Below, piece by piece: positions 5,040 to 10,441 of a stretch of DNA of 10,456 nt. Position numbers and translations under genes: made by a program. The stretch comes from an uncultured bacterium (GTDB lineage Bacteria > Patescibacteriota > Minisyncoccia > Phycocordibacterales > UBA1006). Every line of letters begins with the position of its first letter. Position 1 is the first letter of the stretch. The DNA lies in NCBI GenBank assembly GCA_903873095.1, contig CAIQMU010000028.1, positions 1-10,456 of the forward strand. Direction: 5' to 3'. The notes beneath the pieces were generated by a model. It had not been told where the DNA came from. It saw nothing but the letters and a program-made list of their open reading frames with translations, and did no database searches.

Positions 5040-5765
5040 ATGAATGAAACAGAATCCAAAGACAAAAAAGATGCAAGCTGGAAACAAATGATCCAACTGG
5101 CAATGTTCATCGCAGGAGTACTGGGTGAAATTTTTAACACTGATCAGATTCAGGAAAAAATCCGAAGCAAAGGCAAGCTCCGCAAGGATCTACTGAAGTT
5201 CTTCGAGGTTGTCACTGACACCTACACCGAAATCCGCGAGGAATGGCAGAAATTCTACCAGTCCGAACTCGGCATGGAGGTTGACCTAAGTGGGGTACAA
5301 ATTCCCGAAAAACCCGAAGGCGACTATCGCTTGATCTTCATCGCCAAGGGACTAACACCAAACAAAGTGTTCGACTCATGGAAATTTCCAAAATGGAGAT
5401 ACAGTGATGATCTCGACAAGGCAGTGCCAACCAACAAAAGGACTGCAAGCGAAAGCTACGCAATCTGGGCTCTCGCTGGTGACGAACCCGACAAAGAATT
5501 TCTGGGTAAATCCACAAAACAAGTTGATCCAAACATGGAGATAGGCATGACTTTACTGGAACGCATGATCTTCGAGTCAAAATATTTTGCTGAAACAGGC
5601 AAACATCTCGATGTAAAAGGTGTCACATTCTGTAGTGGTTCTCGCAGCTCGGGCGGTAACGTGCCGTACGTGGACTTGAACACCGACGGCAGGGTGTGCG
5701 TGTACTGGTACTATTTGGACCGCTCGCATGCGAAGTGCGGTGTCCGTAGAGCAGTTACGCTTTGA
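5040..5765 (+). CDS. Hypothetical protein in a self-contained unit between pilM and pilN
   Basis: A 241-residue protein of unknown function. Residues 1-75 are charged and helical, with only a weakly hydrophobic patch near 18-34, and lack a clear signal peptide. The rest looks like one globular domain with the stretches VQIPEKPEGDYRLIFIAKGL (about 86-105), DDLDKAVPTNKRT, SYAIWALAGDEPDKEF, TLLERMIFESKYFAETGKHLD and VTFCSGSRSSGG. From memory, similar proteins with these phrases recur as hypothetical proteins in Patescibacteria genomes; this is unverified. Codon use differs from the neighbours: 8 of 12 Ile codons are ATC, and C- and G-ending codons are common, while the pil genes favour ATT. It has its own strong promoter, a consensus Shine-Dalgarno and a terminator, so it is probably highly expressed and may have been transferred. 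A role in pilus function is not implied. Confidence 0.85.
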   Translation: MNETESKDKKDASWKQMIQLAMFIAGVLGEIFNTDQIQEKIRSKGKLRKDLLKFFEVVTDTYTEIREEWQKFYQSELGMEVDLSGVQIPEKPEGDYRLIFIAKGLTPNKVFDSWKFPKWRYSDDLDKAVPTNKRTASESYAIWALAGDEPDKEFLGKSTKQVDPNMEIGMTLLERMIFESKYFAETGKHLDVKGVTFCSGSRSSGGNVPYVDLNTDGRVCVYWYYLDRSHAKCGVRRAVTL

Positions 5766-7097: not shown

Positions 7098-7568
7098 ATG
7101 AAACCAACATCATCAAAACTCATATGGATTATCGGTGTGGTCGTAGTGATCGGAGTTTTGGTGTACATATTTGTGATTCAGGGATCTTCTTCATCAAGTA
7201 ATTCAAGCACTGCCTCACTTGTTTCAACATCTACAGGTTCATCAGCATCAATTCCAACAGATGCGACAAGTACAGGTTCGGCCGGTGATCAAGTTGTTGC
7301 GATCTTGCGAAACTTGTCATCAATTCAACTATCAGATGCAGTGTTTCAAAATCCTGCATTTGCAATGTTGACAGATCTTAGTACGGCGCTTCCTCCAGCA
7401 ACAAACCCTGGACGTCGAAATCCATTCGCTCCGGTTGGAACAGATACAGCAGCATCATCAACACCGACCGCATTATCTACAGGTACCATAACGACACCTC
7501 CTGCTTCATCTGCTAAATCAACCCCTTCGACAGGTAAGGCAAGTATGGGAACAGGTACAGGGTTATAA
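7098..7568 (+). CDS. Short PilP-like pilus protein
   Basis: A 156-residue protein with one membrane segment (about 8-27), a Ser/Thr-rich low-complexity stretch (28-63), a conserved-looking middle (VVAILRNLSSIQLSDAVFQ, then PAFAMLTDLS), and the motif GRRNPFAPV (105-113). An NPF or DPF motif of this kind is typical of PilP and GspC-like linkers. The tail is again Ser/Thr/Gly-rich. Classic PilP is a lipoprotein that contacts the secretin PilQ through a C-terminal beta-domain; here there is no lipobox Cys and no such domain. Position after pilO, 12 nt from its stop, supports a role in the alignment complex. Orthology to PilP is inference. Confidence 0.65.
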   Translation: MKPTSSKLIWIIGVVVVIGVLVYIFVIQGSSSSSNSSTASLVSTSTGSSASIPTDATSTGSAGDQVVAILRNLSSIQLSDAVFQNPAFAMLTDLSTALPPATNPGRRNPFAPVGTDTAASSTPTALSTGTITTPPASSAKSTPSTGKASMGTGTGL

Positions 7569-7580
7569 AAATATTTTTTA

Positions 7581-7607
7581 AAAACTGTGAACATCACAGT
7601 TTTTTTT
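7581..7607 (+). terminator. Intrinsic terminator after the pilNOP genes
   Basis: A perfect 10-bp stem AAAACTGTGA (7581-7590) / TCACAGTTTT (7594-7603), ACA loop, in a run of eight T. It ends the pilN-pilO-pilP unit, so pilB must be transcribed from its own promoter. Confidence 0.9.
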
Positions 7608-7633
7608 ATTGCCTTTTATAAAAATTTACATGC

Positions 7634-7687
7634 TATACCACCACACCAATTTGAAAAAATTGGTTTTTAAATTGGTGTGGTGGTATA
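7634..7687. repeat. Perfect 19-bp inverted repeat spanning the pilB promoter
   Basis: The left arm (7634-7652, TATACCACCACACCAATTT) is the exact reverse complement of the right arm (7669-7687), with a 16-nt A/T-rich loop. The right arm contains the extended -10 of pilB. It could be an operator for a dimeric regulator or, in read-through RNA, a 19-bp hairpin ending 10 nt before the ATG. Confidence 0.9.
7645..7668 (+). terminator. Alternative terminator-like hairpin inside the inverted repeat
   Basis: ACCAATTT (7645-7652), GAAA loop, AAATTGGT (7657-7664), then TTTT. The same left segment also pairs with the identical AAATTGGT at 7669-7676 in the long repeat, so the two structures exclude each other. 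The stem is A/T-rich, so termination would be weak. Confidence 0.45.
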
Positions 7688-7689
7688 AT
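7660..7689 (+). promoter_or_regulatory. Promoter of pilB, near-leaderless
   Basis: TTGGTT (7660-7665), 18-bp spacer, TATAAT (7684-7689) with an extended TGG at 7681-7683. The box ends 8 nt before ATG 7698, so the transcript should start at or next to the start codon, without a Shine-Dalgarno. Confidence 0.65.
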
Positions 7690-7697
7690 TTTCTCAT

Positions 7698-9434
7698 ATG
7701 GGATTTCTTGAACAACTTGTAACAAGTGGTGTGATCAATCGCTACCAAATGGAAGACATTGTCGAGAAGGCAAAGACACTCGACGGTGATATTGATAAAG
7801 CTCTCGCAAATGCGGGTGTTTCGGCTGATGCAGTTCGTTCTGCAAAATCATCAGTATTTGGTGTCCCAGAACGCACACTTAATTTCCAAAACTTTTCATT
7901 TGATGTTTTGAAATTTATCTCTCCTGATGCATCAGTGAATTATAAGATTGCACCCATCGGAATGAATCATGGTGTACTCGAAGTTGGAATGCTTGATCCA
8001 GGAGACGTTGCAGCCGAAGGAGCTTTGCAGTTTATCTCGTCAAAAATAAAAATGCCGATTGATCGGTTTGTTATTTCGTACGACGATTTTAATAAAATTG
8101 CCGAAGGATACCAAGGTGTCACAAAACTTGATAATGATGAGGGTGGAAATTCAAATGCATTTGCGGATGAAATTTTGGACGTTCCTCTTGATGAGGCTGA
8201 TAATACATCAACAACCAATGTTGCCGGCGACATCACCGAAGACGCACCAGCGACAAAAATGATTGGTGTGATCGTGAAAAATGCGATCGACGGAGGAGCA
8301 TCTGATATTCATATTGAAAACGTCGGTTCAGAAGTCCGTGTTCGTTACCGAGTAGACGGAATTTTGCATACATCACTTCGTCCAAATAAATCATTTGCAA
8401 GCGCACTTGTTGCCAAGGTAAAAACACTTGCCAATATGAAACTCGATGAGAAACGAAAACCGCAAGACGGGCGTTTTGTTGCCGTAGTCGACAAGGGAAC
8501 AGGGCACGAACGCAAAGTCGATTTCCGTGTTTCGACACTGCCAACGTTTTACGGTGAAAAAGTCGTAATCCGTATCCTTGATCCAGAGCGAGGTGTTAAA
8601 ACACTCGAAGATGTGGGGCTTTCGCCTGAACACCTGGCACTGGTACGCGAAACATTGACGCGTCCACACGGAATGATTTTGATGACAGGTCCAACAGGAG
8701 AAGGAAAGTCAACAACCTTGTATGCAATGCTCAAGGAGCTTGATCGAGAAAAATTAAATATTGTATCACTCGAAGATCCGATTGAATACAACATTCCCGG
8801 AATCAATCAGTCCCAAGTAAAACCAGAAATCGGCTATGACTTTGCTGATGGATTGCGCAGTATTTTGCGCCAAGACCCGGACGTTATCATGGTTGGTGAA
8901 ATCCGCGACAAAGACACGGCGCGACTTGCCATTCAGGCAGCGCTTACGGGTCACTTGGTATTTGCAACACTTCACACCAACAGTGCGATCGGTGCGATTC
9001 CCCGTTTGATTGATATGGGTGTTGATCCCTATTTGATTGCCCCGACGCTGTTGATGTCGATGGCGCAACGACTTGTTCAAAAAATTATTCCAAATACGGG
9101 ACTTGCGATTCCTGTCGAAGGTGCGATTGCAGAACAGTTGCAAAAAGAATTTGCAGATTTGCCTGCTGATTACTTGAAAAAACTTCCGATCACCGACACT
9201 GTTTATGAAGCGCAAAAATCAGCAAGTAGTGAATCGGGAATGCATGGACGAATTCCTGTTGCAGAAATGTTCACGGTCGACAAGGAAGTTGAAAATATTA
9301 TTTTAACGAATCCGACTGAAAACGCGATTTACGAATACGTCCGAAAAAACCAAGGCATGCTTACTATCAAGGAAGACGCGATACTCAAATCGATGGAAGG
9401 GAAAGTGCCTTGGAGTGAGGTGAATAGTTTGTAA
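7698..9434 (+). CDS. pilB: Type IV pilus extension ATPase PilB/GspE
   Basis: A 578-residue hexameric cytoplasmic ATPase that powers pilin polymerisation. Residues 1-145 form an MshEN-type N-terminal domain. After an acidic linker (about 147-185) come the N2 domain, with GASDIHIE and RVRYRVDGIL, and the RecA-like domain. Walker A is GPTGEGKST (331-339, Lys337), the Asp box VSLEDPIEYNIPG (about 356-368), Walker B DVIMVGEIRD (395-404, Glu401), and the His box TGHLVFATLHTN (417-428). Family members usually carry a four-cysteine zinc site before GR.PV.E; here the region keeps MHGRIPVAEMF but has no cysteine, and the whole protein is cysteine-free. Walker A has Glu and Ser where GSGKT is commonest. 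The PilB-type N-terminal domain argues against PilT. pilC and pilT are not in view. Confidence 0.93.
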   Translation: MGFLEQLVTSGVINRYQMEDIVEKAKTLDGDIDKALANAGVSADAVRSAKSSVFGVPERTLNFQNFSFDVLKFISPDASVNYKIAPIGMNHGVLEVGMLDPGDVAAEGALQFISSKIKMPIDRFVISYDDFNKIAEGYQGVTKLDNDEGGNSNAFADEILDVPLDEADNTSTTNVAGDITEDAPATKMIGVIVKNAIDGGASDIHIENVGSEVRVRYRVDGILHTSLRPNKSFASALVAKVKTLANMKLDEKRKPQDGRFVAVVDKGTGHERKVDFRVSTLPTFYGEKVVIRILDPERGVKTLEDVGLSPEHLALVRETLTRPHGMILMTGPTGEGKSTTLYAMLKELDREKLNIVSLEDPIEYNIPGINQSQVKPEIGYDFADGLRSILRQDPDVIMVGEIRDKDTARLAIQAALTGHLVFATLHTNSAIGAIPRLIDMGVDPYLIAPTLLMSMAQRLVQKIIPNTGLAIPVEGAIAEQLQKEFADLPADYLKKLPITDTVYEAQKSASSESGMHGRIPVAEMFTVDKEVENIILTNPTENAIYEYVRKNQGMLTIKEDAILKSMEGKVPWSEVNSL

Positions 9435-9466
9435 TTGACACCCACCTCCACCCATGCTATCATAAT
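9435..9466 (+). promoter_or_regulatory. Consensus promoter of the non-coding RNA
   Basis: TTGACA (9435-9440) directly abuts the pilB stop (9432-9434). A 17-bp spacer is followed by TATCAT (9458-9463) within ATGCTATCATAAT (9454-9466). Transcription should start near 9470. No terminator separates it from pilB, so read-through from pilB is also possible. Confidence 0.8.
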
Positions 9467-9469
9467 CAC

Positions 9470-9730
9470 AAGTTACTTCTTTGAAACATCTGAGAAACGT
9501 ATCTCTTGTTTTTATAACAAGTTAGATATTTTTCTCATCAACATATGAGTAGCAGTGGTTATATATCCTTGTGATATATGACTATATGCCCGATCCCAGG
9601 GCCGTGACAGTAATGTCAACGAAGCTTGGTTTTAAGCCAAGAAAAATCACTCTTTTTGTTACTAGTAACCTCCTTCTAAAGGAGATGCTACTCAACTTTT
9701 TAAACCAGTTTCTTCGGAGCTGGTTTTTTT
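9470..9730 (+). ncRNA. Predicted structured RNA of about 260 nt, unknown class
   Basis: This stretch has a consensus promoter, a canonical terminator and dense base pairing. Hairpin 1 (9491-9537) stacks TGAGAAA/TTTCTCA, GTATCT/AGATAT and CTTGTT/AACAAG, 19 pairs in all. A 9-bp long-range helix (TGAGTAGCA 9546-9554 with TGCTACTCA 9686-9694) encloses several hairpins. These are a 12-pair stem (9556-9584, two G-T pairs), GCCC/GGGC (9588-9602), TGACA-GTAA-TGTCA (9605-9618, GNRA loop), a 7-pair stem (9625-9641), and CTCCTT-CTA-AAGGAG (9670-9684). The palindrome GTTACTAGTAAC (9658-9669) can also pair its AGTAAC half with GTTACT at 9472-9477, a possible pseudoknot. I see no signatures of tmRNA, RNase P RNA, SRP RNA or tRNA. 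The structure was paired by eye. The 3' end overlaps the end of cas1 by 39 bp. Confidence 0.75.
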
Positions 9731-10441
9731 ACTTGAACATCTTGTTTCATGTCGAAGTGGTGGATAGATAGGATTAAATTCTCGTTGTTCACTTACTGCA
9801 TTTCTAAATTCTAACAAATATAAATCAATCCAATAGGATAATGATATGCAGGCTCCTCTCTCTTGATGAAAATATTTTTTTGTAAGTTTTCTATTAATCA
9901 AATGAACAATGTATGCAATATCTTTTTGTGATATTTGAACGAGAGGTCTCTTTTTCTTATGAATCCAAGTAATGATTACACTGTCTACAAGAAAAGGTCG
10001 TAACCACTCTATTAAATCGTATGCCAGTGGATGTGAATGTTGTGATTGTGCACGATGAAATAATCCAAGATCTGTTGGGATATCTAATATCACACATCGT
10101 TTTTGAATATAATTTGTCAGGGTATGATATCCGATATCAAATACTCTGTTCCCCGGGTCAGATCGGTGGGGTTTTCTTTTTGGAAAAAATATTTTTGATT
10201 GTAATTCTTTTCTAATGGTAATCCAGTAGGTTCGAGCCGAACGCGCTTCATATAAAAGTATTTTTTGTACGTCGTTTAACTCAGCATATTCACTATATTT
10301 TGTAATGTGTGTAGTTGATTTCAGAATAGTAAGATTATGATCTTGAAAAAAGATTTTATCGTTAATAATTTTATAAATTGCATGGTTACCAAATTCAGAT
10401 TCTCTATATTTTATAAATTGTTCGAGCCATTTTGCATTCAT
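9692..10441 (-). CDS. cas1: CRISPR integrase Cas1, apparently without the N-terminal domain
   Basis: Cas1 integrates new spacers into CRISPR arrays. From ATG 10441 the protein has 249 residues and matches the catalytic alpha-helical domain: Glu65 in LLYEARSARTYW, NRVFDIGYHTLTNYI (98-112), His129 in LGLFHRAQ, and HPLAYDLIEWLRPFLVD (137-153) with Asp142 and Glu145 as the likely metal ligands. Canonical Cas1 has about 300-330 residues, with a beta-domain before this region and the catalytic Glu nearer 140-190. The chosen start has a TATAAT box 6 nt upstream, as in other genes here. However, the frame remains open to the window edge (five more codons, TTG at 10456), so a longer form cannot be excluded. 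The C-terminal residues KKTSSEETGLKS come from the terminator of the opposing RNA. No Cas2, effector or array lies in the window. Short Cas1 without Cas2 is known in type V-C and V-D systems. Confidence 0.88.
   Translation of the reverse strand: MNAKWLEQFIKYRESEFGNHAIYKIINDKIFFQDHNLTILKSTTHITKYSEYAELNDVQKILLYEARSARTYWITIRKELQSKIFFPKRKPHRSDPGNRVFDIGYHTLTNYIQKRCVILDIPTDLGLFHRAQSQHSHPLAYDLIEWLRPFLVDSVIITWIHKKKRPLVQISQKDIAYIVHLINRKLTKKYFHQERGACISLSYWIDLYLLEFRNAVSEQREFNPIYPPLRHETRCSSKKTSSEETGLKS
9702..9730 (+). terminator. UUCG-capped intrinsic terminator of the non-coding RNA
   Basis: Stem AAACCAG (9702-9708) / CTGGTTT (9720-9726) with a bulged T, an inner TTC/GAG closed by a TTCG tetraloop (9713-9716), and seven T (9724-9730). 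On the other strand the same bases encode the last 12 residues of Cas1. Confidence 0.92.

Follow-up and report, generated by a model that had tools for sequence, protein, structure and literature searches.

The 3′ end of the window, that is, of the whole 10,456-nt stretch of DNA analysed here, contains a structured RNA that probably (we put the chance at around 70%) acts as the guide-RNA scaffold, similar to a tracrRNA or a scoutRNA, of a type V CRISPR system of compact size, consisting of a mini-Cas1 and, most likely, a TnpB/Cas12f-like protein encoded on another contig (C54) of the same genome. The fold of this RNA, its homologues, the covariation of its stems, its position at CRISPR arrays and mini-cas1 genes and, in relatives, the complementarity between a scaffold loop (the dock) and the end of the repeat (the anchor) were computed directly. 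From these data we infer that the RNA is transcribed, that it is bound by an effector, which protein it pairs with and what role the window copy plays.

Results

The features found at the 3′ end of the window are collected in Table 1. The stop codon of pilB directly abuts the promoter of the RNA, the RNA and the minus-strand mini-cas1 gene meet tail to tail, and a 66-codon frame (9571-9771) overlaps the RNA. The 5′ end of the RNA was deduced from the promoter and its 3′ end from the terminator. Further upstream, at 5040-5765, a 241-aa frame without a Pfam match lies among pilus-like genes.

Table 1. Coordinates of genes and RNA elements at the 3′ end of the window.
Feature	Position	Strand	Evidence or remark
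pilB (type IV pilus ATPase)	7698-9434	+	Pfam T2SSE, 4.2e-114
Sigma-70-type promoter of the RNA	9435-9463	+	TTGACA-17-TATCAT
Structured RNA (putative tracr/scoutRNA-like scaffold)	9470-9731	+	z = −7.44; homologues
Hairpin P1, outer stem TGAGAAA/TTTCTCA	9491-9537	+	Outer stem identical in G945 and G128
9-bp long-range helix, 5′ arm, includes GTAGCA	9546-9554	+	Minimum-energy fold
Hairpin P2	9555-9585	+	Compensatory changes among relatives
Hairpin P3, GCCC/GGGC, loop GATCCCA	9588-9602	+	
Hairpin P4, GNRA-type loop in the window; longer loop with GAGC in relatives	9605-9618	+	
Hairpin P5, followed by AAAA	9625-9641	+	
Repeat-like tail: hairpin CTCCTT/AAGGAG, then ATGCTAC	9665-9691	+	By-eye comparison and alignment A3
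9-bp long-range helix, 3′ arm, TGCTACTCA, anchor-like	9686-9694	+	
Intrinsic terminator	9702-9731 (hairpin 9702-9726 and T tract)	+	Overlaps 3′ end of cas1 on the opposite strand
mini-cas1, 249 aa	9692-10441	−	Pfam PF01867, 4.9e-20

A preliminary description of this DNA had proposed a consensus promoter, and the site indeed matches the consensus at 11 of 12 positions. Since the 401-base region holds two promoter-like sites of at least 9/12, against 1.0 in shuffled sequences, the promoter taken alone is weak evidence. Folding of the plus strand between 9470 and 9731 gave −84.8 kcal/mol, a value that none of 200 dinucleotide shuffles equalled, in agreement with the claim that the pairing is too ordered for a neutral spacer; the minus strand folded less strongly (z = −4.67). 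The 19-pair hairpin (P1) and the 9-bp helix that had been described are both present in the computed fold, and P4 carries the GNRA-type loop. The terminator and its T tract were also recovered, whereas the proposed UUCG cap persists only as an alternative, C(UUCG)G, to a minimum-energy loop that closes with 3 bases. As had been stated, the RNA falls into no known class: Rfam 15 returned no family at the gathering score, the six matches of a permissive search all lay far under it, and neither a tRNA nor a tmRNA was detected. No description of this RNA appeared in the titles or abstract openings among the literature matches listed, a set that leaves subscription journals mostly outside its scope.

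Homologues of the RNA were sought at the level of sequence and of structure. A nucleotide search of 148 relatives returned the source genome and one weak match, in G120. A model built from the window, G945 and G128 (R1) matched 9 of 396 relatives of G128 (E ≤ 0.01), and four of these matches, all from the same order, proved real on inspection: G128 and G945, which are both part of R1, G048 and G865. The matches in G138, G808, G990 and G033 turned out to be hairpin look-alikes when their sequences were read, and that in G790 was dropped unread because its genus label and match length were as in G033. In three of the four homologue genomes, a CRISPR array follows immediately downstream of the RNA. 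Both G128 and G945 present cas1, the RNA-like stretch and the array on one strand, with the contig ending within or just ahead of cas1, while the G048 contig begins with the RNA, which leads into five 40-base repeats and a degenerate sixth. These arrays are regular, with spacers of 31-32 nt, including those of G048. Fold z values of shorter stretches from the relatives were −4.0 (G945), −3.2 (G128) and −3.0 (G048), and the −7.4 obtained for the 262 nt of the window was the lowest measured.

Two further models, from which the window was left out, recovered it with E-values that are rough in both cases owing to a short calibration: R2, built from G945 and G128 only over P1-P3, at 26.2 bits (E = 0.00079 in 205 kb), and R3, which rests on the four relatives and covers P2-P5 but leaves out P1, at 24.1 bits (E = 0.00014 in 228 kb; next match 0.56). 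R2 also found G048 (4.8e-9) and three of the G865 copies (2.5e-5 to 5.8e-5), and, counting against the assignment, a chance hairpin on the minus strand of L079 that at 24.0 bits (E = 0.0026) comes near the score of the window. For R3, the window was the only match under 0.5 in 57 sources.

One spacer of G048 (L079:359-389) contains a tRNA T-arm-like stretch that weakly matches phage tRNA/tmRNA genes. A comparison of the G048 array with phages yielded 89 records with E-values of 10 or less; the best 8 were weak (lowest E 0.008) and included tRNA/tmRNA genes. Three 22-base spacer cores and one 25-base mini-array piece had no match in viral contigs, which counts against the scaffold assignment.

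The preliminary description had proposed a covariation check in homologues from Patescibacteria, and in these the stems do covary. Alignment A9, with 7 rows and the window among them, showed changes on both sides in 10 of 23 pairs and had 93.6% of its cells paired, compared to 28-43% when the partners were slid; in A10 (the four relatives, window excluded) the corresponding values were 11 of 27 pairs and 90.7% versus 35-53%. None of 500 shuffles reached the double-change count of either alignment, in both of which P5 is poorly aligned. A hand alignment of five lineages, which leans towards structure, showed double changes in 8/10 pairs of P2, 2/4 of P3, 5/5 of P4 and 3/5 of P5, and left three cells unpaired in P1 and P2. 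The seven pairs of the outer P1 stem (four lineages) presented no double change in this alignment, and one of them is broken in G048. The covariation relates to five lineages only, a point against the scaffold assignment. Alignments A3 and A5 place P2/P3 wrongly; A3 was used for the comparison of the repeat-like tail.

A further feature of the relatives is found in the loop of P3. This loop reads GTAGCA in G945 and G865, GTAGCC in G128 and GTAACC in G048, and the repeats end in TGCTAC, GGCTAC and GGTTAC, respectively, so that in all four relatives, and in three sequence versions, the loop and the final six bases of the repeat are perfectly complementary. In the three full arrays, those of G945, G128 and G048, this terminal 6-mer is the only one in the repeat that fits the loop, and of 50,000 shuffled repeats only 26, 59 and 31, respectively, would fit it. 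Six nucleotides is also the longest Watson-Crick complement between scaffold and repeat in these three genomes; longer ones, up to 11, form only if G-U pairs are allowed. A second contact, a pseudoknot between GAGC in the P4 loop and GCTC behind P5, is present in 4/4 relatives and absent from the window copy. The dock and the anchor provide a covarying rule that is directly testable.

The preliminary description had overlooked the neighbouring cas1 gene. Its product aligns to the Pfam profile from position 84 of 283 onward (PADLOC gave a similar result) and does not contain the usual N-terminal part of Cas1. In a set of 5.8 billion proteins, the family comprised seven members including the window's own, with lengths of 242-253 aa except for one 192-aa piece; the six longer ones have the start MNAKW in common, preceded in one of them by ten extra residues. 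Judging from these lengths and from the common start, the window protein is a complete mini-Cas1 and no fragment. Its frame is open and the columns invariant in the family are retained. Counting the source genome, profile matches were obtained in 13 of 379 genomes of the phylum (E ≤ 1e-10) and in 6 of 397 genomes of the order (E ≤ 1e-12), weaker matches falling mostly in longer frames of 310-373 aa. The mini-Cas1 was absent from the viral contigs and phages searched and from 3 other genomes of the genus, and a search of assembled genome contigs gave one Prevotella locus (33% over 72 residues).

Mini-cas1 or similarly short genes also occur in apparent two-protein CRISPR loci. G499 (L058:7461-10480) encodes a 242-aa mini-Cas1, a 602-aa Cas12f-like effector (PADLOC 2e-213) and an array of five repeats, the last one partial, and G746 carries a mini-cas1 and a Cas12f-like effector. 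In G825 (L066), a 254-aa cas1 (7819-8583) and a 649-aa effector-like frame with CxxC motifs (8657-10606) are flanked on both sides by arrays of the same repeat (7285-7750 and 11033-11137), each beside a degenerate repeat and a long hairpin. The effectors of these three loci, in G825 a candidate only, are different ones, and R1 found no such RNA on the stretches examined (best E 1.6).

The first 28 bases of the promoter have a single other occurrence in the 656,782-base genome (E ≤ 0.001): they form the last bases of contig C54, directly behind a gene for a 403-aa TnpB/Cas12f-like protein. PADLOC assigned this protein to Cas12_x1 (V-F group; 1.7e-32), ahead of Cas12f models (1.5e-8 and weaker), NCBIfam to TnpB (4.9e-13, below cut-off), and Pfam gave no match. 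The profile of its family, compared with solved structures, matched TnpB (2.4e-14) and, as best hit, an AI-designed nuclease (7.4e-24). C54 also encodes pilT- and pilC-like genes. We found pilT in 18 of 20 genomes of the family, the source genome among them, and in 16 of the 17 others pilB stands directly ahead of pilT and pilC (tblastn). The exception is the sister species G001, with pilB and pilT at the ends of two contigs. Because pilB and pilT are contiguous in these 16 genomes and the promoter is repeated on C54, the arrangement suggests that the RNA, cas1 and the effector gene belong to one insertion between pilB and pilT, which was split in the assembly and whose middle is missing. On the basis of the promoter in common and of the synteny, the C54 protein is most likely the partner of this RNA.

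The G001 contig ends (L041:230-611; L010/L042:1-1351) carry fragments of another gene, which seems to be broken off where the contigs end and by eye is sigma-factor-like with a DnaA-C-like end; Rfam gave no match there.

An alignment of eight relatives of the effector, read at the usual positions of the RuvC motifs, showed that the RuvC-I aspartate is kept, while by eye the usual RuvC-II glutamate is present in none of the eight, some having one a residue or two off. The C-terminal zinc-ribbon part is missing in seven of them, P0001 included, and P0008 has PF07282. These observations suggest that effectors of the C54 type bind DNA rather than cut it, as does Cas12m, for which the opening of the abstract reports DNA binding without cutting. 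Among 285 genomes of the class the effector family was found in the source genome only, and both the effector and the promoter pattern were absent from the viral contigs searched. A search without a positive control gave no effector relative in five genomes (G128, G945, G825, G928 and G368), which counts against the scaffold assignment.

Compared to its relatives, the window copy is divergent, with one repeat-like tail and the dock paired in cis. The tail occupies the position of the first repeat of the relatives, follows the same plan by eye and, like the repeats of G945 and G128, ends in GCTAC, but it is followed by the terminator with no spacer. The P3 loop does not fit this tail, which, like the missing pseudoknot, argues against a scaffold. 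The GTAGCA that serves as P3 loop dock in G945 and G865 is found here upstream of P2, where it pairs with TGCTAC within the 9-bp helix; this helix would therefore be the contact between a dock-like and an anchor-like piece, made in cis. Thus, the long-range helix of the preliminary description holds for the window copy and was not seen in the relatives, where a hairpin loop contacts the array repeat. Also counting against the scaffold assignment, the RNA is opposite in direction to cas1, unlike in G945 and G128. On the same side of the balance, no CRISPR array was found in the source genome by a search with the RNA sequence (five chance-level matches elsewhere). The window copy may be a self-contained scaffold that acts in trans, or it may be an array without spacers, these having been lost or never gained.

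In G865, for which 21 contig starts and 19 contig ends were examined out of about 30 contigs (the ends of C14 read N), at least four copies of the RNA were found, on contigs C15 and C29 and at either end of C18, each cut on its 5′ side by the contig end. The 3′ half of the RNA is visible at L080:1-280, L081:1-340, L082:1-290 and L082:4660-5026 (minus strand). Behind the four scaffolds, within 850 bases, there are 3, 7, 6 and 8 anchors (24 in total) near GGTGTGCTAC, allowing up to 3 mismatches and requiring a final AC; the background elsewhere in G865 is 1.08 per kb. The gaps between anchors measure 1-24 bases, with one of 77, unlike those of arrays made by Cas1, and a terminator-like hairpin follows each series. 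The piece CGGAGTCA between anchors is common to two copies. G865 was not among the mini-Cas1 profile matches listed for the order genomes (E ≤ 1e-12). On contig C11 of G865 (L093:111-806), a Y1 (REP-associated) transposase-like gene, recognised by eye, lies beside a uvrB-like frame and adjoins a contig end that leads into an RNA copy.

Discussion

The proposal that this region encodes a structured, probably ribonucleoprotein RNA gains support from the fold, the homologues and the covarying stems. Calling it an undescribed stand-alone RNA was too open, since both its genomic context and its relatives assign it to a CRISPR system, with the role of a guide-RNA scaffold. In such a system, the scaffold would fold into hairpins P1-P5, and the dock of the relatives would pair with the last six bases of the repeat, thereby holding the crRNA on the effector. 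With the scaffold directly before the array on one strand, scaffold and guides could share a transcript in these genomes. The window copy, with a promoter and a terminator of its own, would be reduced to a single repeat-like tail whose TGCTAC is paired with the dock-like GTAGCA.

Other explanations have to be weighed against a CRISPR scaffold. The long tracrRNA form of Cas9 systems is a natural single guide that switches a chromosomal target, and TldR, according to the opening of an abstract, is an RNA-guided TnpB-like protein that does the same. By analogy, the window RNA might be a single-guide or regulatory RNA in which the scaffold and one repeat-like unit direct a probably non-cutting TnpB/Cas12-like protein to such a target. 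The single unit, the terminator and the dock- and anchor-like pieces already paired in cis speak for this, and the C54 protein, which keeps the RuvC-I aspartate and by eye has neither the RuvC-II glutamate nor the zinc-ribbon part, fits as well. However, the bases past the anchor are used by the 9-bp helix and then by the terminator, leaving no evident guide; the first 17 of them have no match at fewer than 5 mismatches in contigs C28 and C54, apart from themselves, and the mini-Cas1 argues for spacer acquisition, so we consider a single guide rather unlikely. We regard as unlikely, too, that the RNA is the remnant of a decayed CRISPR locus that lost its array and whose scaffold is drifting. 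The mismatch of the P3 loop with the tail, the missing pseudoknot and a repeat-like tail of only 27 nt speak for decay, but there is no damage to promoter, stems or terminator, the fold z is the lowest of those measured, and the Cas1 frame is open with its invariant columns kept.

It would be very surprising if the RNA were the omega-RNA of an IS200/IS605 or IS607 transposon with the C54 protein as its TnpB. This protein is TnpB-like, and the Y1-transposase-like gene of G865 sits near a contig end leading into an RNA copy; yet the relatives have regular CRISPR arrays, two of them with mini-Cas1, and inspection by eye revealed no transposase in the window or C54 ORFs. Chance pairing in a neutral spacer, for which we found no argument, has a negligible probability given the z of −7.44 and the homologues, and it is refuted by covariation beyond both the shuffles and the slid controls.

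If the RNA is indeed a CRISPR scaffold, the system may be among the smallest of its kind, with a mini-Cas1 of about 250 aa and a TnpB-like effector of about 400 aa, and it may offer material on how transposon guide RNAs split into a separate scaffold and array. More tentatively, and with the odds rather against it, these RNAs could represent a new guide-RNA architecture of Patescibacteria, in which the scaffold is fused before the guides and a 6-nt dock selects any downstream anchor. The G865 repeat would then be cut down to the 10-nt anchor, in a genome where no mini-Cas1 was detected, and the RNA would present a series of short guides, in cis, to a TnpB/Cas12-like protein that probably does not cut. 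Such an arrangement would stand halfway between the arrays of CRISPR systems and the guide RNAs of transposons. If true, the G865 mini-arrays would be a case of a CRISPR repeat reduced to little more than its scaffold-contacting bases.

Types V-C and V-D are among the known systems closest to the one described here. The Cas1 of type V-C has no N-terminal domain. Excerpts of PMC6977970 describe both types as devoid of cas2 and the V-C Cas1 as a mini-integrase that works without Cas2, and excerpts of PMC9522604 give a contact of 3-5 nt between scaffold and repeat end in the Cas12c family, with the scoutRNA docked on the repeat end in the Cas12c2 structure. The relatives likewise show a short scaffold contact with the very end of the repeat, but of 6 nt, and have spacers of 31-32 nt, which also sets them apart; the candidate effector, TnpB/Cas12f-like and of about 400 aa, differs from CasY/Cas12d, whose size is 1,153-1,304 aa according to an excerpt of PMC6509639. 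Like a scoutRNA, the RNA is encoded at a CRISPR locus, cas1 adjoining it in the window, G945 and G128 and an array following it in G945, G128 and G048. As regards the dock of a scoutRNA, all four relatives have a short one that complements the last bases of the repeat; in the window copy the P3 loop is mismatched and GTAGCA lies elsewhere. Because the candidate partner, a 403-aa TnpB/Cas12_x1-like protein, is neither Cas12c nor Cas12d, we propose that the RNA works like a scoutRNA and do not class it as one.

Type V-F (Cas12f) tracrRNAs are brought to mind by the best PADLOC model of the candidate effector, Cas12_x1, which belongs to that group; the effector shows no C-terminal zinc ribbon, however, and the Cas1 beside the RNA is a mini-Cas1 of 249 aa, which would set it apart from the adaptation genes of type V-F. 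In general, tracrRNAs usually show extended anti-repeat pairing with the crRNA repeat. An omega-RNA overlaps a transposon end and carries a single guide at its 3′ end. Omega-RNAs and, as far as the abstract opening tells, TldR resemble the present case in that a scaffold RNA goes together with a TnpB-like protein, one with a seemingly incomplete nuclease site, and differ from it in that the relatives have CRISPR arrays, two of them also a mini-Cas1. Finally, the mini-arrays of G865, and these only, resemble TIGR-Tas as outlined in the opening of the abstract of PMC12045711, with short guides placed between short repeats.
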